In this document: positions 33,231 to 48,232 of the stretch, piece by piece
Layout of the letters: each line of letters begins with the position of its first letter
How positions within the stretch are numbered: the stretch's first letter is position 1
Source of the DNA: Sedimentisphaerales bacterium
GTDB lineage: Bacteria > Planctomycetota > Phycisphaerae > Sedimentisphaerales > SM23-30
Assembly (NCBI GenBank): GCA_016928435.1
Contig: JAFGKT010000048.1
Location: forward strand, 1-64,000
Direction: 5' to 3'
Length of the DNA stretch: 64,000 nt
Position numbers and translations under genes: made by a program
Notes under the pieces: generated by a model
The model's input: the letters and a program-made list of their open reading frames with translations, nothing else
What the model was told of the DNA's origin: nothing
Database searches by the model: none

Positions 33231-35477
33231 TTAAAGCCGCACATCCGGCGAAATGAAACGCAATAATGAATCGCAACCCCATTGGAACAGCGTAAACCGA
33301 CCGCACGCTATTCGTACTCGACCAGACATATAAGGCCGGGCACAATCCAAAACCTCCGCATCATCCAATTCTATCGTAATCTCATAAACCGGATCGGTAG
33401 GCCTTTCACTTCGCGTATAATAATCGTACTCCGTATAAACCTCGCCGCCGACTTTATGGCTCAATGCCATCTTCTCGCCAAATTCTCCCATACTGTCTTC
33501 ACAGTGATCACCCGGTCCTATCGCCACATGGCCGGTAAACGTATCACCCGGAAAAGCATACAGCATTAACTCCGCCGCCTGACCAATCTCATCCAAATCA
33601 GGGAATATCCGCGCGAGGTCGTCTTCCGAAACCCAAACCTTGGCCGTCATTTGCGAATTATCCGCTAGCAGGAACAGAATCGTACCTTTTCTCAAAAAAC
33701 GATTGTTTATGGAATCCAGTTCTGACACTGTACCCAAAACCTCACCCGAAAACGACGCCTGAACCTGCAACTCCGCTTCTATTGATCGCAGCCGTTCTAA
33801 GTCCGCCACTTTCGATTCTCGACGCTCGATCAACATATCCGCTTCCGCGTTCTGACCGTAGCGGCGTAACTGGTCGATCTGAATATCAAACTGCTGAATC
33901 TCATAGCCGGTCTGTTCTATCTGCAACTGCAAATCTCTGTTTTCTAACAGCGCCACGGTTCCCGATTGATCCGTGCCGTCAACCGTTATGTAGCTTCCTT
34001 CCTTCACGGAATCGACAAGCTGCAACTGGCCATCAACTCCCGTGCGAACCAATTGCACTTGTGCCGGCTCTAAAACAAAATTCAGCGTAACATGCTGTTC
34101 CATCGGCCAGAACAAGACCATGCCGACCAATATCACCAATATCGCTAATATAATCACCAAACGCGTATTTGATATACCCAATGCGATGCGTTGCTTAGCT
34201 ATACGACTACCTCCCTGAACCAAAGGCGTTAACATCATTTTCCAAATCGCAAGCACAACCAAAACCTGACCTAGCCAGGCTAGATGCAAACCGTCCAATA
34301 TGCGATATAGGCCAAACATTATCGCAAACAGAATAAACCAACGGTACAAATAGGCTGACACACTATAGAAAGGGAAAACCGAACGAAAACGATGTTCCTC
34401 CGGCATCTCGTCACTGTGCCCACCCAAAACGCAGCGTACAAAAAGATTACGCATATAGTCGTTAGAACGCTGGCGAAGATTCGGCACTTCAATCAAATCC
34501 ATCAGCATGTAATATCCATCATATCTCAATAATGGATTAGCGTTGAATAGCACGGTCTGGAACGAACAAGCTACTACAACATTGAATGCCATCAGATTTA
34601 TAAAGTCAGGCGAATTCGTATAGTACCAGACAATCGCAGCTATCCCCGCGAAGATCATCTCCGTCATTATCCCCGCGGCCGTTACAAATATCCGATGGCG
34701 CTTATGCGGAAAAGTCCAAGAATCGGTCACATTACAATAAAAAAACGGCACAAAAACCAAAAACAGCCACCCCATCTCGTGAACTTCCCCCCCATAATTC
34801 TTGCACGTTAAACCGTGTCCGAATTCGTGCAGTCCCTTGATAATCCAAAGCGTCGCCAGCAATAACGGCATATTATAGATCGTGAAAAACTGGGTGCTGA
34901 ACGTTTCGCTGAAATCATCCCAGCGGTGCAAAATCATCCCAAGGCCCACGAACATCAACGCCAGATACAGCACAAAACTGGGCCAAGTCCATATAAAACG
35001 CAAATGCTCCCAGATGCGACCCAAAATCTTGTCGGGATCAAAAACCGGTATCTTGACAAACAGGAAGTTCTGGAACATCGCCTTGGTTTTCAACCACCAC
35101 TTTTTCCGCGACAAACGATACAGAACTTCGTCACGGTCCGGCTGCGCTATCGTAATAACCCCCTTACTGGTCAAGGCCCGCACAAATTGCGCAACCTCCG
35201 CGTTGTTCAGACAGTCAGTCCTAAATTCCTTGCGATGAGCCGCTTTTAGCTGCGCCAACGTAATATCATTACGCAATTGATTGATAATGAAGTATTCTTC
35301 CCGGTTAAAGCGATAATAACGCAGCGAAACCGGGTCTTTGATAACCCAATATGGCTGGCCGTCGTAAATCTGCGGATAAGCCAGCAGCTCCCTTCGCACC
35401 TTGGGAAGAAGCTGATGCTCCGGCAAATCGCTATTGGGCGACCCCGCCCCATCATACCTTTTGTAGTTGGATTGCAT
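33231..35477 (-). CDS. PqqD-like domain + M50 (site-2 protease-like) membrane domain + HlyD-type C-terminal domain
   Basis: WVIKDPVSLRYYRFNREEYFIINQL; LHEFGHGLTCKNYGGEVHEMGW (HExxH); NANPLLRYDGYYMLMDLIEVPNL; C-terminal barrel/lipoyl-like region with helical hairpin. Confidence 0.85.
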   Translation of the reverse strand: MQSNYKRYDGAGSPNSDLPEHQLLPKVRRELLAYPQIYDGQPYWVIKDPVSLRYYRFNREEYFIINQLRNDITLAQLKAAHRKEFRTDCLNNAEVAQFVRALTSKGVITIAQPDRDEVLYRLSRKKWWLKTKAMFQNFLFVKIPVFDPDKILGRIWEHLRFIWTWPSFVLYLALMFVGLGMILHRWDDFSETFSTQFFTIYNMPLLLATLWIIKGLHEFGHGLTCKNYGGEVHEMGWLFLVFVPFFYCNVTDSWTFPHKRHRIFVTAAGIMTEMIFAGIAAIVWYYTNSPDFINLMAFNVVVACSFQTVLFNANPLLRYDGYYMLMDLIEVPNLRQRSNDYMRNLFVRCVLGGHSDEMPEEHRFRSVFPFYSVSAYLYRWFILFAIMFGLYRILDGLHLAWLGQVLVVLAIWKMMLTPLVQGGSRIAKQRIALGISNTRLVIILAILVILVGMVLFWPMEQHVTLNFVLEPAQVQLVRTGVDGQLQLVDSVKEGSYITVDGTDQSGTVALLENRDLQLQIEQTGYEIQQFDIQIDQLRRYGQNAEADMLIERRESKVADLERLRSIEAELQVQASFSGEVLGTVSELDSINNRFLRKGTILFLLADNSQMTAKVWVSEDDLARIFPDLDEIGQAAELMLYAFPGDTFTGHVAIGPGDHCEDSMGEFGEKMALSHKVGGEVYTEYDYYTRSERPTDPVYEITIELDDAEVLDCARPYMSGRVRIACGRFTLFQWGCDSLLRFISPDVRL

Positions 35478-35540
35478 ATTTTTACTACGTATCTAAAAAT
35501 CTAAAAACCGATAGCCCAACAGTCGTCGCTACAAGTCTTA

Positions 35541-36509
35541 TTAATCCACCAACTCCACCCGACCACTCATGCCCGGCCGAAAACGATAACGATACTCCGA
35601 TTCCCCAGTACCAGGCAAAACCGGATTCTCAAATTCCACTTCTACCGTAAACCGACCCGTGGACCCAATGGTGGGACTTATATAAACCACATGACCAACG
35701 AACGCCTCGTCACCAGCGCCTTGCACATAAATATTCGCTGTCTGTCCTAAATGAACATTCGCCAATTGCTCAGGAGGAAAATTCTCCGATATCCGTAAAA
35801 AATCAACCTTCATCAAGGCTATAACCGGTTGGCCACGGGTAACCATCTCACCCACTACCACTTGCTTCACTTGATCATAAGCAGTAATGTCAAGACTGGA
35901 AAACGGCACTACGACCCCATCCATCGGAGCCACAATCGAGTGCTTGGCCAGCAGAACCTCATTCTGACGCAACTCCAGTTCCAACAGACGTACGTTCATT
36001 TGTGCTTCTTGCAGAGCGTACCTCGCCATGTCACGCCGTTGAGTAGCTTCTCGCATTTCTTTGGGCGAACCAACACGAGCTCCGCCGACTTCTGTCTCAA
36101 AAAGTCTCTGCACAATCTCCAAGTTGTCTTGAGCATACTCCAACGCAGTCTCTGCTTCTGCAATATCGGTATTCATTTCAAGCTGAGCCGTTATGCGCTC
36201 TACTGCTATTTCAACCAGAGTACTATCCAGCCGTATCAGCACATCACCAGCGCTCACAAAATCCTGCGGCTCACTCTCAATAGAACCTATCAGACCTTCA
36301 ACTTCGGCACTTAAAACTGCCACTCGTTGCGCCCGCAGAAAGCCCGAAAACATCTCCGAATTGCCATAGTTGCCGTAGTCATCTGAATCCGAACCAGCCA
36401 CTTGGGCCATGACATCGTCGGCAAAAAAACCGGATGCCAAAAACAAACAAACCAAAAGAAACAGTCCCGTCTTACGTTGCATCACGCCATTATCAATCAT
36501 ATGCGTCAT
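35541..36509 (-). CDS. HlyD/RND-type periplasmic adaptor protein
   Basis: Signal peptide GLFLLVCLFLASGFFADDVMA; SAEVEGLIGSIESEPQDFVSAGDVLIRLD; SIVAPMDGVVV. Confidence 0.87.
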   Translation of the reverse strand: MTHMIDNGVMQRKTGLFLLVCLFLASGFFADDVMAQVAGSDSDDYGNYGNSEMFSGFLRAQRVAVLSAEVEGLIGSIESEPQDFVSAGDVLIRLDSTLVEIAVERITAQLEMNTDIAEAETALEYAQDNLEIVQRLFETEVGGARVGSPKEMREATQRRDMARYALQEAQMNVRLLELELRQNEVLLAKHSIVAPMDGVVVPFSSLDITAYDQVKQVVVGEMVTRGQPVIALMKVDFLRISENFPPEQLANVHLGQTANIYVQGAGDEAFVGHVVYISPTIGSTGRFTVEVEFENPVLPGTGESEYRYRFRPGMSGRVELVD

Positions 36510-36515
36510 CCCTTA

Positions 36516-38498
36516 TTAAAATGTCGATCTACGTACAAAATCCACAAACTCATGCGTAACCGCGTATAGCAAATTGCCTCCGCCGCATTCAACCGCCACC
36601 TTTCCTTCCATCCCTTGACGCAAACCCATTTTACGCAATTCTTCCGGCACAGAAACTCGCACACTTATCACATTGCGGTATTCTCGTTCACCCGTAGCGA
36701 TCACCTGGGCACGAGGCGCAACTGAAATAACTTCGCTGGCGTACTTCCTATCTGGATGAGCGTTCAAAATAACCCAAGCACGCAGAGGTTCGACACGTTC
36801 CGGGTCATCATAGGCCCGCAGTAAATCTCCCGCGTCATTTTCCGGTACCGAAACTAAGAACTCCCATTCTGTATCATCTGGAACAATCTCCAGAATCGCT
36901 TCGCCACGAGTCACCGGTCGAGAAAGCAAATGTGCTATCGTACTCTCCGAGCTAACAACCCTGCCCGAAACCGGAGCGATAATCTGAAACTGACTCATTT
37001 GATGCTCCAGAATCGCTTGCTCAGCTTCCAAAGCATTCATACTCAGTTGATAGCGATCCGCCATTGCTGCATTACCGCTTTGCCGAGCTTGATTGCGGAG
37101 CAACCTAGCCTCCTCCCATTGGTGTGTAACCCTATCAATCGAACTTTGCATAGCCCTGTCGTCCAGAGAGGCTAGGACATCCCCCGCTGCCACTATATGG
37201 TCTTCAGGAACCGAAACCTCACGAATCACACCGTCTTGTTGCGCGTACGCCATCCGTGCCGATACAGCCACCACCTCCGCTGTACCAACAATCTTTATTT
37301 CCATTGGAACCAATATTGGTATCAAAACTAGAGCCAAAACCACCGCCGCCCAGAAAATCCGTCGCGCTCGCCCCATACGCCATACTCGATCCCGCAAACG
37401 TCCCAAAGGCCGCATCAGAAACGCGAACGGCAAAGTGCTATAAGACATACTATTGTACAACGCTACCCCCGCGTCGGTCAGTAAGCCCTCGCACTGCAAA
37501 CGCTCAGAATCGGTTATCGCTTCCTCAGTAGCCTTTTCCACAATCATGGCGCCAACAACATTATCTTCATAGCGAATTGGAAAAACGCCTAAACTCTTAG
37601 ACTCCGCTTGGAGCATGTACAAACGAGCCGCCGTTATCAAATCACCACCTTCCGACACCTCCGCCGAATTCACCGCCTCCGGATTATCAACCAATAGCGT
37701 TTTATTGTTCTCACAAACAACCCGCGCTATTTCGCTGATGCTTTTGACAAAACTGCTCTTTACCGCCACCGATTCCAAACCTGACACCGACTCAACCCGA
37801 AACTTACCCTTGGCGTTGTACGTCCCCACCATACACCGATACACACCCAACAACTCCTGTCCGTAATTCGCCAACGCGTAGCAAACCCGCTGCGGATCCA
37901 AACTGCTATGCAATGAGCTGACGTAATCTCGCAGTCGGTCACTGCGAGTCATTTCTTCGTGCAAATCCTCGATCCGTTTGCGTTGCAGGAAAATCCCCAC
38001 ACGGGCGCACAAACCAACAACAAACCCGCCATAGCCGCGAACCGCTCTCGGATCAACCTCTTCCGGTGAAATCAACGCCAGAACCGCCGCAACCTTTTTG
38101 CCTTCAACAATCGGTACAAACAGCAATGTGTTAGGGCAATCATTCTGCACCGAATCCCCCAGACCTCCGTCGTACACATTCGCTCCCCCGTTGCCAGGCA
38201 AAATCACCGCCGAACCGGTTTGCACCACTCGGCCGACCGCCATGTCTGCCAACTGTCTTTGCCGCCCGTTTTCCTCCAGTCCAGCCGGACTCAAGTTCAT
38301 GTGACAGACCATCTCCCAACTGTCACCTTCGCCAACCCAAATCGCTCCGCCGACTCCCAATACCGATACCGTCTGCTCGAGAAAGATCCGAAACAAATCT
38401 TCTCGGCTTGTATCACTTACGCAAAGCTCTACAACGGCACGTTCAAGTTGGCTCAATCGTTCTTGGAACGCACTAAGCTGAGCATTCATTTCCGCCAT
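36516..38498 (-). CDS. GAF domain(s) + TM + HlyD-type adaptor fusion
   Basis: N-terminal GAF-like region; TM RIFWAAVVLALVLIPILVPMEI; QDGVIREVSVPEDHIVAAGDVLASLDD and FQIIAPVSGRVVSSE lipoyl halves. Confidence 0.85.
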   Translation of the reverse strand: MAEMNAQLSAFQERLSQLERAVVELCVSDTSREDLFRIFLEQTVSVLGVGGAIWVGEGDSWEMVCHMNLSPAGLEENGRQRQLADMAVGRVVQTGSAVILPGNGGANVYDGGLGDSVQNDCPNTLLFVPIVEGKKVAAVLALISPEEVDPRAVRGYGGFVVGLCARVGIFLQRKRIEDLHEEMTRSDRLRDYVSSLHSSLDPQRVCYALANYGQELLGVYRCMVGTYNAKGKFRVESVSGLESVAVKSSFVKSISEIARVVCENNKTLLVDNPEAVNSAEVSEGGDLITAARLYMLQAESKSLGVFPIRYEDNVVGAMIVEKATEEAITDSERLQCEGLLTDAGVALYNSMSYSTLPFAFLMRPLGRLRDRVWRMGRARRIFWAAVVLALVLIPILVPMEIKIVGTAEVVAVSARMAYAQQDGVIREVSVPEDHIVAAGDVLASLDDRAMQSSIDRVTHQWEEARLLRNQARQSGNAAMADRYQLSMNALEAEQAILEHQMSQFQIIAPVSGRVVSSESTIAHLLSRPVTRGEAILEIVPDDTEWEFLVSVPENDAGDLLRAYDDPERVEPLRAWVILNAHPDRKYASEVISVAPRAQVIATGEREYRNVISVRVSVPEELRKMGLRQGMEGKVAVECGGGNLLYAVTHEFVDFVRRSTF

Positions 38499-39022: not shown

Positions 39023-39060
39023 AAAAGAAAAGGCCCGGCCTGCAAAAGCAAGCCGAGCCT
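39023..39060 (-). terminator. Rho-independent terminator of the giant surface protein gene
   Basis: On the minus strand: AGGCTCGGCTTGC-TTTT-GCAGGCCGGGCCT followed by TTTTCTTTTG. Confidence 0.75.
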
Positions 39061-39115
39061 TTATCATCGTCTAACAGAATCAGCTTAACGCCGATTCTTT
39101 ACCGAACTCATCAGC

Positions 39116-42100
39116 TTAGATCAAACCACTGTTCCAGAGGTTGAATCCGCCAATGTTCCAGGCCGTCACGCCACCACTGAACGTGTTGCCAATCGCATGA
39201 GTATTGACATTCAGGTTCGTGGTGTGACCTTGGACGGTGCTGTTCAGCAACATACCGGCTTGCAGCGCCGTTACATCGCCACCAACACGCAGGCCCATCA
39301 CATGGTTCGAGCAGCTGATGCTATGGGCATCGCCGCGGATGAACGCCTGACTCAGGATGCTGCCGCCGGTCACGCTTACGTCACCAGCGTCGCCGCCAAC
39401 CCACAGACCGAACAGGTGTCTGCCCGCATTGATATCCGCCGCGTCACCATCAACAACCAAACCGGTCGTCATAACGGTGCCATTGATATCAACGGTATCA
39501 ACATGCGCGGTTCCAGGAGCAGCATAATCGCCGTCATCACTCAGAACACTGTCGCCGATACCAGCACGAACATTGTTGACTACCCGATACAGATCAATGA
39601 TCGAGGCCCAGTCAGTGTTGCTGGTCGGTGCCATATCAGCATTCAAGCTCAGAATGTTGGCAACGCCGTAACCATTTACGTCAACATCCGTAAGCTTATC
39701 GAAGATACGGGTGAAGTTAGTGGTGATAACACCGCCACCAACCAATGCCAACGTTTGGTCCTGGCCAGCCATGTTCAACCAATGTACACCTTCGTTTACG
39801 CCAAAGGTGCCGGTGGTCGTTACATTGGCAAGCTGAGCGGCCGCGGCGTCAATCACGCCGAAGTTGAACGCGTTCAAATCAGCACCAACGGCAATCGTGT
39901 CGGTCGCGACTACGCGAGCTACTTCACCATTGCTGGCGTCATCAGGATTCGGGGTAATGTTTATGGTACCGAGCCATGCGCCATCAACAGTCAGCACATT
40001 CACGTCACCGGAAACGTCCAGCGTGCTGCCGGCTGCCAAACCGCCAACCAGGCGGATGCTCGTGCCGTCAACAATAGCCAGTGTCGTTGCACCGGTTACC
40101 GAAACATCCAAACCGTTGGTGTTAAGAGCGGCACCAACAACCACAACATCCTCGCCATTAATCACGAGTACGTTGGTTCGGTCATGATTCCACGAACTCT
40201 CGACATTGCCTTGAGCATCATGCCAGTTGTTCGGGCAGATGATCCGATCAATGTCAGCCGTGAAGGCAACCTGCAATTGTACCCAAGCAGAACCGCTCGG
40301 TACGTTGATACCACCGAAGTCACCGCCCGATTGGATCGTAGCGGAAATACTGCCGGTCGGCAGGAAGAAGTCACCCATGGCTTGATCGACCAGCAGGTCA
40401 ATGCCTTGAACGATCGTAGGATCAGCGTAAGCGACAAAGCGTGCTTCCGTTGCTTCGTCGTTGTCGTAGCTGTTATCGTTATCGCCATCGACGAACCAAG
40501 GAGTTCCGGTCCACATGCTGGCCAGCATGTTACGGTTCTCACCGATGTCACCAGACTCAGACAGGATACCGCCATCGAACCAAGTCGGTATGCCGGTCAG
40601 GCTGTACAGGCCGATCGGGCCGCCTGCGTCATCAGCGGTGTAGGTCACAGCCAGAACACCCTCAGCGATAAACTCGCCGTCGATATCCAAGCTCGCTACG
40701 ATACTGCCAATCGATACACCCGAGTGAACATCGCCGTCGATGTTGCCATCCTGCGAAATGATATCACCAATCGCGCCTGGGATATCAGCGACGATTTCAA
40801 CGTCGCCTTCAGCAATGACACCACCGGAGCTTTGAACCTGCAGGATCACATCGATCGGGAGGTCATCAACATCGTCACCGGCAGCAGTGTCAAGCAGGGT
40901 CGGAGCGTAAACGATCGTCGCGTTGTTGATCGCGGTCATGCCGGCAGGCAAACCAGCCGGATATGCACCGGTGATCTGGGCCAGCAACTCAGCGCTGGTG
41001 TCAACATCAGCGTCATCGTCAACAACGAACCAGCCAACATTGGCCGGACTTGCGATAACAAAGTTAGCAGTCACAGCGTCAAGAGCAATCACGTTGCCGA
41101 TGTCCATGGCGTCGCCATTGAGGTCAACCACATACAGGCCGGCAGCCGCAGCGCCATCGTTAATAATGTAAACATCGCCAATGGTGTCAGTACCGTTGCC
41201 AAAGGCATTAGCAGCCCATTGAACAACGATTGCACCAGCTTGATCGCCACCTGCCACAGCCGCCGTGACACCGATGTAATCAATGTCGCCGAGATCGCCG
41301 AAGACTTCATGATCAATAATGGTTACACTTTCAACACCAACAGAACCACCGATTACGGCAGCACTGGTAATGCCGGTACCTTCGATCAACACATCAGCAT
41401 CAAGAACGTGCTCAGCACGATCGCCGCCGGTGTTGCCACCGATGAAGATGTCCGAGTTCAAAGAAGGCTGAGTACTCATACCGTCAGCGATAATCGCCGT
41501 GGTGGTGCCCGCAATAACTACGACATCACTGTCGCCGTTGTTACCAAGTTCGTCACCGACCTTGATACCGCGGAGATCGCCATCCTGCTCAATGTTGTTG
41601 TCTTCCAGATCGTCGTTCACACCTGTGACAATCACATCGTTGTTGATGTCATCAGCAACAAGGATATCGGTTTCAGGAGCGTCGCCGATGTAGATGTTAG
41701 CATTCACTGAGCCGCTCGGGGTCTCATCGGTATCGGTGTAATCGCCGTCGTTGTTACCATCGATCGCGATACCGACCAAGATGTCAGCACCTGAGGTTTG
41801 CCCGTTGTGAATGATACCCGGTATGGTCAAAGCGCCGGCCAGGTTGCCACCGATGGCGATAGCGGCCGAGGTATTGGTTCCATCAGCAATCAAGCTGCCG
41901 TTATCCCGCGAGCCAACTGCTTCACCGGTAATCGCTGCCTGAGTGGCGTCGATATAATCATCGCCGGTCAAAGTGATCGGACCAGAATTGCCGGTTACAA
42001 CAACGTTAATGTTGGCTGCGCCAGGATTGCTCATCGACTGAACAATCATGTTACCCAGCATCGCGTCAGCGTCAGAAACGCTGGTCGCCGGGTTCAAGCC

Positions 42101-44911
42101 CAGTTGGCTACCAAGTGCTTCGCCACCGCCGAGACGGTCGAAGTTAGCCTTGGTTGTGTTCTGAGCAACAATGCTCGTCACAACCGCGTTATCATTCGCG
42201 TCGCTGCCGTTATCGATACCAACCGAAACCGTGCTAACCGGAGTACTCACTTCCAACAGACCGTGGTTGGTTTCAAACTCGAACCAAGAACCGTCGGTGG
42301 TACCTTCGGTTTCACGAACCGCAACGTCAGTTGCCAAGCCCGTGACACCGTTAATGTGAATCCGACCGATCATCGCGTCGGGAGCAGCAGCCATCATGCC
42401 GGCCGGGTCAATCGCGGCACCGCTTTGACCAACACCGCTAAATTCGTAAGGCGCGGTCACGCCAGCGTCACCGTTGCCGGCACCATCGATACCGTAAACA
42501 ATGGCCTCGCCGCCAACGATAATAATCTCATGGTTGAATTGGGTTACGCCGGCGCTAGCGAACTGGAACCATTGCGTACCAGGCAGAGTCAGAGGTTCGT
42601 TGGTGTCTCTATCCAACGTGCTGATGGTTACGTTCGGTCCCATGTCTAGGGTCGAGAAGCCGGCCACATCGTCATCAAGACCTGTGCCCAGTCCCTGGAT
42701 ACCGCGGCCATAGAAAGTGTGCTGTGCAGCACCGCCACTGGCGTCACCGGCAATCATAATGATCTCGACGGTGTTAAACTCATTGGCAACTTCGCCGATA
42801 TCACCGTACAGGTCACCTTCGATGCTGATCAGCGCCATGCTAGGCGTAGCAGGACCGAGGTTGCTTGCCCGGGTAATCTGAGTCACGTCGAATTCACTGG
42901 CTCCGCTGGTGCTTACAACCAATTCGGTCGCGGCACCCAAGCCGGCACCGGCCAGGTCATCAATCGAGACTCGCTCATCAGCACCGGCCGGGATCAACGT
43001 CAACGTCGCCGTTACCGGAGTCGTGGAAGCGTCAACCAAGTAGGTCTCGCCAGCCAGAACCATGCTAAGCAGCGGAGAAGCGTTGCGTGCCGCAACAATA
43101 GCGTTGCCGGCACCGGTCACTTCCGCACCAGTGGTCATATTCAGAGCAAACGGCAAGGCCGCACTGTAATCAGCGTCAATAGCGCCGTCGAGGGTGTCGT
43201 CGCCGTTATAAATAATCAGGTTGGCGTCAAAGTCGATGACGTCACCGGCATCACTGCCACCTGCAATCAGCGAACCGTTCGCAGCAGCATTCCAGATACG
43301 ACCGCTGATTTCACTGGCGGCAGTAATCGTCAAGCTGTCATTGTTTGCTGTGTCAACGACGTTAACACCGGCAAAGTCAACCGCGTTCGTCGGAGCGTTA
43401 TTGGTCGCGTCAGCTTGGGCCGTGCGAATCCGCAGTTCCGCGGCATTCGTCGCACCACCCTGAACCGTCAGCAAGCCAACCGTACCATCGCCTTGGATGT
43501 CAACGCGAGCGAAACCGTTATTGGCGGTAATCTCGCCAACCGGACGCACCGTCGTGTTGTCACCGGCGGTGCCGTTGGTGTTGATGATCAGCGTGTTGGC
43601 ACCTGCCGTACCAATTGTCGTACCAGCGGTTACAGCCGGCATCGCACCGGTGTCGTCATTGGTATCGGCATTCATGTTAAAGGTCACGTTAGCGCCGGCA
43701 GCGATAGAACCGGTCGTCGCAATGGCATCGGTCATACCGTCGTCAGCGGTGAAGACTACCGGACCAACTTGGCCCAGAGCCAGCAATGGCGTCGTTCCGC
43801 CAACCTCGCCGATCGTACCAACCGCGGCACCACCATCGGTATCGGCGGCGTCATCAGCGGTAAAGGCTACCTGCCCCGCGCCATGGCCGATGTAAGGTGA
43901 ATCAATCGTGCCGATGTTCTCAGCGTTAAATGTCACCGTAGCAGCGCCATCGCCAATTCTGTCGCCGACAGAAATGCTCGGGATGTCGCCGCCGTTGTTG
44001 TCGGCGTCAGCATCGAACAGGATAGCACCATTCGCACCGCCAACAGCACCCGTTACGCTAAATGCGCCCATGCCGTCGTTGATGTTAAAGGTAATGTTAT
44101 TGCCGCCGTTGGCTTGTACGTCACCAGCCCAGGTGAACGTGCCCATACTGTCGGCTGCCACAACGCAAGCACCATTGGTCGATGCCAGATCAACATCAGC
44201 GTCTGTTGATGAAATGTTGCCCAAGGTACCGGTACCGTTAGTTGCCACAATCAGACGAACCGGCATATTGGCCGTCGTAATCGAGCCGAATGTAATGTTG
44301 CCAATACCCGAGTTGGCTAACCCGGTGAACACTTCAGGCGTATTGGCAATCGCCGGATCACCAACACTGGCCGCCGTGGCTACTTGTACCGTAGCGGTGT
44401 CAGCCACATAACCAGGAATCGTAAAGTCTTGATCCAGGCTGGCAGCACCATCGCCATCAACCGTGGTAATGCCGCTACCAATGACCAGCGTCAAGCTAGT
44501 CGTATCCGCAGCCAAGCCGCTTACGTTAACCTCGCCAATGGCTTGGCTACTGGCAATAACGATCACTGCTGCGTTACCTGCACTGGTATCCTGAACTGTA
44601 ATGTTCAGTACCGCCGTATCCGCGGCAACACCGCCATCGACAAAGTCCGCTACCGAAATGCTGTCGATACCGGAACTAGATGCACCTAGAGCCAGAAAAC
44701 CATCGGTAGCATCCCATGCGCCGTCGCCGATGACCGCGCCGGTATCCCATGTCACGAACTCACCCGGAGCCAATACCAGCGCCGGGGCGATACGTTCTTC
44801 GAGCTCTTCAGCACGAAGTCTGCCGAATCTATTGAATCGGCGGTTAAGGGTTGAAGTTTTCGTAAATTCCTTTTTTGCTTTCTTGATCAGTTTGCGAAGC
44901 CCGTTGGCCAT
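39116..44911 (-). CDS. Giant (1931 aa) acidic, Gly/Ala/Asp/Thr-rich surface or exported protein with LEPR-XLL-like N-terminal motif
   Basis: N-terminal basic MANGLRKLIKKAKKEFTKTSTLNRRFNRFGRLRAEELEERIAPALVLAPGEF; beta-repeat texture; Asp-rich Ca-binding-like DGNNDGDYTDTDETP and DGDNDNSYDNDEA. Confidence 0.85.
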   Translation of the reverse strand: MANGLRKLIKKAKKEFTKTSTLNRRFNRFGRLRAEELEERIAPALVLAPGEFVTWDTGAVIGDGAWDATDGFLALGASSSGIDSISVADFVDGGVAADTAVLNITVQDTSAGNAAVIVIASSQAIGEVNVSGLAADTTSLTLVIGSGITTVDGDGAASLDQDFTIPGYVADTATVQVATAASVGDPAIANTPEVFTGLANSGIGNITFGSITTANMPVRLIVATNGTGTLGNISSTDADVDLASTNGACVVAADSMGTFTWAGDVQANGGNNITFNINDGMGAFSVTGAVGGANGAILFDADADNNGGDIPSISVGDRIGDGAATVTFNAENIGTIDSPYIGHGAGQVAFTADDAADTDGGAAVGTIGEVGGTTPLLALGQVGPVVFTADDGMTDAIATTGSIAAGANVTFNMNADTNDDTGAMPAVTAGTTIGTAGANTLIINTNGTAGDNTTVRPVGEITANNGFARVDIQGDGTVGLLTVQGGATNAAELRIRTAQADATNNAPTNAVDFAGVNVVDTANNDSLTITAASEISGRIWNAAANGSLIAGGSDAGDVIDFDANLIIYNGDDTLDGAIDADYSAALPFALNMTTGAEVTGAGNAIVAARNASPLLSMVLAGETYLVDASTTPVTATLTLIPAGADERVSIDDLAGAGLGAATELVVSTSGASEFDVTQITRASNLGPATPSMALISIEGDLYGDIGEVANEFNTVEIIMIAGDASGGAAQHTFYGRGIQGLGTGLDDDVAGFSTLDMGPNVTISTLDRDTNEPLTLPGTQWFQFASAGVTQFNHEIIIVGGEAIVYGIDGAGNGDAGVTAPYEFSGVGQSGAAIDPAGMMAAAPDAMIGRIHINGVTGLATDVAVRETEGTTDGSWFEFETNHGLLEVSTPVSTVSVGIDNGSDANDNAVVTSIVAQNTTKANFDRLGGGEALGSQLGLNPATSVSDADAMLGNMIVQSMSNPGAANINVVVTGNSGPITLTGDDYIDATQAAITGEAVGSRDNGSLIADGTNTSAAIAIGGNLAGALTIPGIIHNGQTSGADILVGIAIDGNNDGDYTDTDETPSGSVNANIYIGDAPETDILVADDINNDVIVTGVNDDLEDNNIEQDGDLRGIKVGDELGNNGDSDVVVIAGTTTAIIADGMSTQPSLNSDIFIGGNTGGDRAEHVLDADVLIEGTGITSAAVIGGSVGVESVTIIDHEVFGDLGDIDYIGVTAAVAGGDQAGAIVVQWAANAFGNGTDTIGDVYIINDGAAAAGLYVVDLNGDAMDIGNVIALDAVTANFVIASPANVGWFVVDDDADVDTSAELLAQITGAYPAGLPAGMTAINNATIVYAPTLLDTAAGDDVDDLPIDVILQVQSSGGVIAEGDVEIVADIPGAIGDIISQDGNIDGDVHSGVSIGSIVASLDIDGEFIAEGVLAVTYTADDAGGPIGLYSLTGIPTWFDGGILSESGDIGENRNMLASMWTGTPWFVDGDNDNSYDNDEATEARFVAYADPTIVQGIDLLVDQAMGDFFLPTGSISATIQSGGDFGGINVPSGSAWVQLQVAFTADIDRIICPNNWHDAQGNVESSWNHDRTNVLVINGEDVVVVGAALNTNGLDVSVTGATTLAIVDGTSIRLVGGLAAGSTLDVSGDVNVLTVDGAWLGTINITPNPDDASNGEVARVVATDTIAVGADLNAFNFGVIDAAAAQLANVTTTGTFGVNEGVHWLNMAGQDQTLALVGGGVITTNFTRIFDKLTDVDVNGYGVANILSLNADMAPTSNTDWASIIDLYRVVNNVRAGIGDSVLSDDGDYAAPGTAHVDTVDINGTVMTTGLVVDGDAADINAGRHLFGLWVGGDAGDVSVTGGSILSQAFIRGDAHSISCSNHVMGLRVGGDVTALQAGMLLNSTVQGHTTNLNVNTHAIGNTFSGGVTAWNIGGFNLWNSGLI

Positions 44912-46636: not shown

Positions 46637-48232
46637 ATGTCCGCACAATCTGAAAAAAAAACGCCGAAAACCGCCCTTGAATCCTGCCGTGACGCCCTCG
46701 AATCCCTTGTAATCGCTTTTATCTTGGCGTTTGTATTTCGAGCCTTTGTGGTCGAAGCCTTTGTTATTCCAACCGGCAGCATGGCAGATTCTTTAAGAGG
46801 CGCCCACTTCCATATGGTTTGTCCCAATTGCGGATACGAATACAACTACGGCTTCACTCCCCAAAGCTACGGCTACGGCCCCGACAGCAGAGGCTTAATA
46901 CCACCAGCACCCATCACCGTCGTGCCCAACCAAGCCAGAATCGTCCAGCAAAACGGCGACATAAGAAACCATGCGCCGACCGGCGAACCACTGTGTCCTA
47001 TGTGCGGCTGCGCCGTCGGAACCGCTGTTCGACAACGTGTAAACAACGGCGACCGAATCCTTGTCCTAAAATACATCTACCACCTCTCCGAGCCCCAACG
47101 CTGGGATGTCATCGTTTTCAAAAACCCCCGTTTGCCGCAAGAAAACTACATCAAACGCCTAATCGGCAGACCTGGAGAAACCGTCGAACTTATCGACGGC
47201 GATGTCTATGTCAACAACGTCATTCAACGTAAGCCCGAGCATGTTCAACGGGAACTGTGGATCGAAATCTTCAATAGCGACTACCAAAGCCCTTTGCATA
47301 CCGACCAAAACTATGTGCGAGGCCTCGAAACCCCCAACCTCTGGCAACAGCCCATAGACATCCAACAGCCAGAAACCTGGACCATCGATTACGCTCAACA
47401 TCAATTCGACTTCAACGGCAGCGAGCAACCCGCCGCTGTCAGTTTCACCCACGAACGTCTTGGTTTCACCCTCGCCAATTTCGACGCTTATAACGGCTAT
47501 CGAACTGACCGCGATAATGTCGCCAGCGATCTCAAAATCGCTTTCACCATCATACCCCAAAGTCAAGAATCCAGCATCGAACTAACCCTCGGAAAGTACG
47601 GCCGACAGTACCGCGCCACCGTCAACCTCGCCGGCCAATATCAAATCACCGACCTCTACAACAGCACAGTTGTAGCCCAAGGCAATTTCACCTCCCTAAC
47701 CATGGGCCGTCCAGTAATAATTTCTTTTGCCAACCTCGATCATCAACTCACCCTGAACGTGGAAAACGACTCTATTACTTACAACGGGCCATCTGATCCC
47801 CAAGAATGGGGCTATGATCCCCAGTGGCACCATACCCCCCAAAGTGCCATGCCTCTGCCAACCGTTGACATCGCCGCACAAGGCCAACCGTTCGCCCTCC
47901 AACATGTTCAGCTATTTCGCGACGTCCACTACACCAATTCCAATTTGGACAACGGAAGCGCCCCAGGGCATGGCACCGAAGGCAACCCCATCACCCTCCA
48001 AGACGACCAATTCTTCGCTCTGGGCGATAACAGCCCAGTCAGCGGCGACTCACGCGTTTGGAGCCAGCCCGGTATCGGCAATCGCTCAACAAGCTACGAC
48101 GCAGGCATCGTACCCCGAGACTACATCATGGGCCGAGCCTTCTTCGTCTATTGGCCTGCCGGCTACACCATCCACCCCAACGTCAGATTCGCACTCATAC
48201 CCAACGTAGGCGACATGCGATTTATTCATTAA
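46637..48232 (+). CDS. lepB: Signal peptidase I with zinc-ribbon-like and large internal insertions
   Basis: FVIPTGSMADSLRG (Ser), ENYIKRLIGRPGETVELIDGDVYVNN (Lys), FFALGDNSPVSGDSRVW; extra CPNC...CPMC and about 250-aa insertion. Confidence 0.9.
   Translation: MSAQSEKKTPKTALESCRDALESLVIAFILAFVFRAFVVEAFVIPTGSMADSLRGAHFHMVCPNCGYEYNYGFTPQSYGYGPDSRGLIPPAPITVVPNQARIVQQNGDIRNHAPTGEPLCPMCGCAVGTAVRQRVNNGDRILVLKYIYHLSEPQRWDVIVFKNPRLPQENYIKRLIGRPGETVELIDGDVYVNNVIQRKPEHVQRELWIEIFNSDYQSPLHTDQNYVRGLETPNLWQQPIDIQQPETWTIDYAQHQFDFNGSEQPAAVSFTHERLGFTLANFDAYNGYRTDRDNVASDLKIAFTIIPQSQESSIELTLGKYGRQYRATVNLAGQYQITDLYNSTVVAQGNFTSLTMGRPVIISFANLDHQLTLNVENDSITYNGPSDPQEWGYDPQWHHTPQSAMPLPTVDIAAQGQPFALQHVQLFRDVHYTNSNLDNGSAPGHGTEGNPITLQDDQFFALGDNSPVSGDSRVWSQPGIGNRSTSYDAGIVPRDYIMGRAFFVYWPAGYTIHPNVRFALIPNVGDMRFIH

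Follow-up and report, generated by a model that had tools for sequence, protein, structure and literature searches.

At issue here is how those very large surface proteins of planctomycetes and of many Proteobacteria that have no obvious Sec signal leave the cell. The question is raised by a contig of a Sedimentisphaerales bacterium (GenBank assembly GCA_016928435.1, JAFGKT010000048.1), of which we analysed positions 1 to 64,000 (the window), where the gene of such a giant lies upstream of three genes that each encode an HlyD-type adaptor region. An original prediction, made from the letters of the DNA only, had taken these three genes (the trio) for an uncharacterised machine that exports or processes surface proteins. 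The trio is in fact a member, with an unlinked SecA2, of a module that Kamneva, Poudel and Ward described in 2015 (PMC4452313). In it, genes for GAF-HlyD, M50-HlyD and HlyD proteins accompany that of a secondary SecA_DEAD protein and, in some cases, that of an OEP (TolC-type) protein. The gene set itself is thus not new. What is new here is, judging from sequence comparisons, a likely substrate tag for that module, the N-terminal motif LExR (LEPR-XLL and its variants), and we consider it fairly probable that the trio exports or processes the proteins that carry it.

The three genes are adjacent on the minus strand, separated by intergenic gaps of 6 and 63 bp, exactly as had been predicted. They and their recognizable parts are located in the window as follows.

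36516-38498, minus strand: GAF-GAF-transmembrane-HlyD protein P0003, 660 amino acids (aa) (open reading frame (ORF), Pfam, predicted structure)
37482-38411, minus strand: two cytoplasmic GAF domains of P0003, residues 30-147 and 201-339 (PF13185, PF01590, structure)
36522-37307, minus strand: periplasmic HlyD domain of P0003, residues ~398-659 (Pfam and structural matches)
35541-36509, minus strand: separate HlyD/RND-type adaptor P0002, 322 aa, with an N-terminal hydrophobic stretch that is signal-peptide-like by hydrophobicity
33231-35477, minus strand: PqqD-like–M50 (S2P)–HlyD fusion P0001, 748 aa (ORF, domain searches, predicted structure)
35148-35420, minus strand: PqqD-like domain of the RiPP recognition element (RRE) type at the N-terminus of P0001, residues ~20-110 (family members and model)
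34815-34829, minus strand: HEFGH metal-binding motif of P0001, residues 217-221, with H217, E218 and H221 invariant
34515-34538, minus strand: NPLLRYDG motif of P0001, residues 314-321, which includes the Asp expected as second metal ligand
33252-34109, minus strand: HlyD/MacA-type periplasmic adaptor domain of P0001, residues ~457-742 (PF16576, Foldseek)

Pfam recognized an HlyD region in each of the three proteins (PF13437 and PF16576 in P0002, PF13437 in P0003, PF16576 in P0001), and P0002 also matched TIGR01730 at 3e-26. The GAF part expected on one of them consists of two stretches (PF01590, 2.6e-12; PF13185, 7.2e-10), the predicted structure of which resembles PDE6 GAF domains, the HlyD part of the same protein being of the MacA type. 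P0001, with HExxH and NPxxRxDG inside its membrane domain, fits an M50 site-2-type protease with an intact active site; HExxH is kept in all 104 homologues longer than 600 aa (104/104), and inspection of the outlying sequences showed that they have the Asp motif as well. It matched the daptide M50 family NF041824 (E=3e-54, 184.7 bits, under the family cut-off of 300 bits) and the YydH/LiaK epipeptide protease family NF058609 (E=7e-9). Its predicted structure (mean predicted local distance difference test, pLDDT, 84.8) contains the membrane domain and an HlyD module similar in Foldseek to MacA, MexA and AcrA, with E down to 2e-11. The PqqD-like domain had been proposed as well. PF05402 has no match in P0001 itself, but of the 14 proteins in the family alignment it does match 9 (best 2.6e-6), and the N-terminus is modelled as three strands followed by three helices, with pLDDT mostly 75-91. 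PqqD and M50 are the leader-binding and leader-cleaving parts in pathways of ribosomally synthesized and post-translationally modified peptides (RiPPs). As foreseen, we found no pump or TolC-like gene at the trio locus and no ABC transporter among the neighbouring genes tested; viral contigs yielded no convincing relative of P0001.

Of 292 genomes sampled from the phylum, 67 have the PqqD-M50-HlyD gene, and its best 80 matches in named genome records are nearly all from Planctomycetota. Among the 57 named-genome loci with enough upstream sequence, 48 have a GAF-HlyD gene and 52 a separate HlyD gene no more than 4.5 kb away and in the same orientation. Because of this conservation, and because a full orthologous trio is found in another genome of the same family, the arrangement, as judged from gene order, is not due to chance. 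An ABC ATPase lies near the module in only 2 of the 33 planctomycete loci of at least 20 kb.

The evidence that connects this module to LExR proteins comes from comparing the 67 module-positive with the 225 module-negative genomes. A LExR profile trained on module neighbours (A4) matched, at E<=0.01, 40/67 of the former and 7/225 of the latter. As A4 is partly circular, we made a second profile (A9) and a reversed-motif control. A9 was built from seven proteobacterial N-termini and from eight LExR proteins that the two closest genomes encode, all eight on contigs away from any trio, and included no planctomycete module neighbour. It matched 31/67 against 2/225 genomes (odds ratio 96, P 8e-21, a value that ignores genome relatedness), or 29/65 against 2/225 when the two training genomes were removed. 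The reversed motif, at E<=0.1, matched 12/67 and 43/225 and had no association with the module. Nearly all A9 matches (94 of 97) fall in open frames 400 aa or more in length. The matches come from many families within the phylum, and 10 are no farther than 20 kb from the M50 gene, where 1.7 would be expected, an excess of about sixfold. LExR N-termini are mostly basic and devoid of a strong hydrophobic segment, the maximal 12-residue Kyte-Doolittle mean being 0.5-1.9, versus 2.67 in P0002.

In Proteobacteria, whose plasmids have fuller operons, the link is found within the operon. The general order is giant, DUF3467, HlyD (with GAF in several), PqqD/M50/HlyD, SecA-like, HlyD and TolC, the DUF3467, SecA-like and TolC genes being found in some. 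Thus, Thalassospira has a LEPR-XLL giant, DUF3467, HlyD, M50-HlyD, HlyD and TolC; Methylosinus has a giant, DUF3467, HlyD, M50-HlyD, SecA-like, HlyD and TolC; Pseudosulfitobacter (two loci) and Alisedimentitalea have a giant, HlyD, M50-HlyD and SecA-like; and plasmids of E. coli, Kosakonia and Azospirillum carry an immunoglobulin-like (Ig-like) giant, TolC, HlyD, HlyD and M50-HlyD. TolC lies within the operon at loci L155-L158 and L161. Where ORFs with a SecA or prepilin peptidase annotation were tested, they proved to be SecA_DEAD proteins, and the profile concerned also matches the ORF with a translocase annotation. A LExR N-terminus could be read at seven of the eight giant loci (E. coli, Kosakonia, Azospirillum, Thalassospira, Methylosinus and both of Pseudosulfitobacter), the stretches being LEPRFLLSAD, IEPRILLSAD, LEPRVLLNAD, LESRQLFDGA, LEPRFMFDAA, LEPRMLFDGA and FEPRVLLSAD; the Alisedimentitalea giant, at the eighth, has none at its annotated start. 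Three giants of the proteobacterial homologues pass the cut-off of the LEPR-XLL family NF012209. The proposal of a protease-linked route for surface proteins draws its support from these operons with LEPR-XLL or Ig-like giants and from the genome-wide and local association, and the co-occurrence of trio and giants that it implied is indeed found in Proteobacteria; in the phylum sampled here, LExR proteins cluster near the M50 gene. The laboratory strain Methylobacterium extorquens AM1 also carries the operon (META1p2402-2399 in PMC4452313). The E. coli form, found in 24/5426 complete genomes and mostly plasmid-borne, is exemplified by L157, with TolC-HlyD-HlyD-PqqD/M50/HlyD next to the gene of an Ig-like giant whose N-terminus has LESR. 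The proteobacterial operons repeatedly have DUF3467 and SapC-family genes as neighbours (L155:6663-6959, L156, L159; L154:11284-12105, L173).

A leader role for LExR is suggested most strongly by small ORFs, which at two loci carry the motif beside PqqD-M50-HlyD. At L208 (G186:C14, 5147-6384) five tandem RiPP-precursor-like ORFs of 54-74 aa lie directly upstream of the protease gene, each preceded by a Shine-Dalgarno-like sequence and reading M..K(L)..(I/L)E(E/A/T)LE(E/P)RIAP(T/S), with tails rich in Gly, Asn and Pro behind it. Scans of four of them gave no Pfam or NCBIfam match. At L210 an ORF of 107 aa, of the same type, is next to the M50 gene. A motif scan of 114 loci retrieved 16 ORFs forward and 2 reversed; the short ones, six in number, are confined to 2 of the 114. 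Two genes for extracytoplasmic function (ECF) sigma factors follow at L208.

The giant of the window carries a variant of the motif, and 617 bp lie between its gene and the trio.

39116-44911, minus strand: large repetitive surface-type protein P0004, 1931 aa, a candidate substrate
44780-44803, minus strand: LEERIAPA variant of the N-terminal LExR motif, P0004 residues 37-44
39029-39062, minus strand: intrinsic-terminator-like hairpin of 15 pairs, 9 of them G-C, between giant and trio

The N-terminus of P0004 reads ...RAEELEERIAPALV, with the motif in the context EELEERIAPA, LEPR-XLL-like by eye. The same-family genome mentioned above (L046, G056) has, besides the full orthologous trio, a LEER giant of 2929 aa at the same place. 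LEERIAPA is conserved there and in the small ORFs of L208, and a variant profile built from P0004 and its homologue in the sister genome matched, at E<=0.001, seven genomes, that of L208 among them, all of which are module-positive (7/67 against 0/225). A candidate DUF3467-like ORF in the 617-bp gap had no Pfam match. Divergent from the LEER giant is the gene of a 531-aa signal peptidase I-type protein (S26; window 46637-48232, plus strand).

Elsewhere in the same genome there are a SecA_DEAD and TolC-type proteins, which the original prediction had missed. The secondary SecA-like protein, on contig C68, has 636 aa with SecA_DEAD, P-loop and PP_bind domains and no wing-scaffold match. Separating SecA2 from canonical SecA by profile score was not possible (566 versus 565 bits). 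Its gene directly follows, on the same strand, that of a GAF-containing sigma-54 activator (L165:9702-13439), and shared control of the two is possible. Of four outer-membrane factors, the one on contig C33 is without adjacent pump or adaptor and scores best with a profile from module-linked TolC proteins. Six further LExR-type proteins, including a subtilase and HYDIN-Ig proteins, are encoded on other contigs. A second GAF-HlyD/PqqD-M50-HlyD pair, without separate HlyD, is found on contig C12 (L045:1674-5978), adjoining an ORF whose beginning resembles that of a protein kinase (LGKYRLLKRLGSGGYCEVWKAKD).

We propose that the trio would form the core, in the inner membrane and the periplasm, of an export machine that resembles type I secretion but has no ABC transporter. 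Its substrates would be surface proteins of very large size, and in some cases small peptides, that bear LExR (LEPR-XLL; here LEERIAPA) at the N-terminus in place of a Sec signal peptide. In the cytoplasm the LExR leader would be bound by the PqqD-like domain, and in the membrane the M50 domain would cleave at or near LExR. A SecA-like ATPase (SecA2) would drive the chain through, and the three HlyD adaptors would connect to an outer-membrane channel of the TolC type, while the GAF domains might gate export by a small ligand. In the genome studied here, the C68 SecA-like protein and the C33 outer-membrane factor would act in trans, and the machine may serve at least seven LExR-type proteins, the adjacent giant among them. 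While the architecture, the M50 site, the conserved gene set and the LExR association can be read directly, we hold each step of recognition, cleavage, energy supply and GAF control with less confidence than the proposal as a whole. A wider formulation, which we regard as tentative and somewhat doubtful, would make LExR a portable leader read by an RRE-guided PqqD-M50-HlyD protein on RiPP-like peptides and giant adhesins alike, the SecA-driven assembly representing a distinct secretion-system class. If true, it would tie RiPP leader recognition to giant-protein secretion.

Several observations weigh against export of LExR proteins by the trio. P0004 has no match to NF012209 at E<=1 nor to A9; only its LEERIAP variant ties it to LExR proteins. 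It had been called LEPR-XLL-like and its position was given correctly on the same strand, but it is probably a separate transcription unit, not in one operon with the trio, because the gap between them holds a strong terminator-like hairpin. Within the genome, the trio (contig C66) is unlinked to the C68 protein, which in a tree forms a long branch of unsure placement beside canonical SecA, and to the C33 outer-membrane factor. Among the planctomycete loci of at least 20 kb, SecA-like and TolC genes were each found in only 2/33, and the stretch of 15.8 kb from E. coli showed no SecA-like gene. The genomes of the association sample, moreover, were pooled and are not phylogenetically independent, and the P values ignore this kinship.

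Such pooling of related genomes would fit an association due to shared ancestry or to a lifestyle with many surface proteins, without a direct functional link, as would the position of most LExR proteins away from the module (6/7 in the genome studied). We think this unlikely given the roughly sixfold local clustering with A9, the operonic linkage in Proteobacteria, and the spread of matches across many families with no signal from the reversed motif. It could also be that maturation and export of RiPP-like peptides is the primary role, the large LExR proteins borrowing the leader or being incidental neighbours. The small-ORF array of L208, the 107-aa ORF of L210 and the likeness to daptide and epipeptide proteases point that way, but the independent matches are nearly all in frames that reach 400 aa or more and the six short ORFs come from two loci only, which makes this rather unlikely.

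M50/S2P enzymes often cleave anti-sigma factors, and the GAF domains, together with the ECF sigma factor genes that adjoin a single homologue (L208), would suit signalling by regulated intramembrane proteolysis, with GAF sensing, M50 cleaving a membrane regulator and the HlyD domains as periplasmic sensors. However, TolC-type and SecA-like partners, three adaptor proteins and the LExR link all speak for export, and we consider signalling very improbable. More improbable still would be small-molecule efflux by these adaptors with a pump encoded elsewhere: the adaptors are of the HlyD/RND type and the genome has RND and ABC systems with outer-membrane factors, but those factors have adaptors of their own, 31/33 loci of at least 20 kb have no ABC ATPase near the module, and we know of no efflux role for an M50-PqqD fusion.

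Export or processing of LExR proteins is thus the reading that we compare with known systems. With the 2015 module the trio shares the gene set, the phyla and, in its genome, a SecA_DEAD protein without wing-scaffold, as in the original description; SecA2 and the outer-membrane factor are here unlinked to the trio, and cases in which SecA_DEAD and module genes are not co-encoded were already reported (PMC4452313). That paper proposed SecA as the ATPase and M50 as a pore, called the biological role completely unknown, and names no substrate, giants, PqqD domain, LEPR or LExR motif (PMC4452313). In the literature covered, which leaves aside preprints and most subscription journals, we found no link of LEPR-XLL to this module or to any exporter. 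Tying LEPR-XLL to an exporter without substrate makes both testable. From LEPR-XLL proper (NF012209, LEPR-8K) the giant of the window differs by its LEERIAPA. Type I secretion (HlyB-HlyD-TolC) is similar in its HlyD adaptors, in the TolC-type partner of the relatives and in the very large, repetitive candidate substrates, but here there is no ABC transporter, an M50 protease stands at its place and the candidate signal is N-terminal. Finally, the M50 core is shared with the daptide (NF041824) and YydH/LiaK (NF058609) proteases, whereas P0001, unlike the daptide protease, scores under the family cut-off, is fused to HlyD and is associated mostly with very large proteins.

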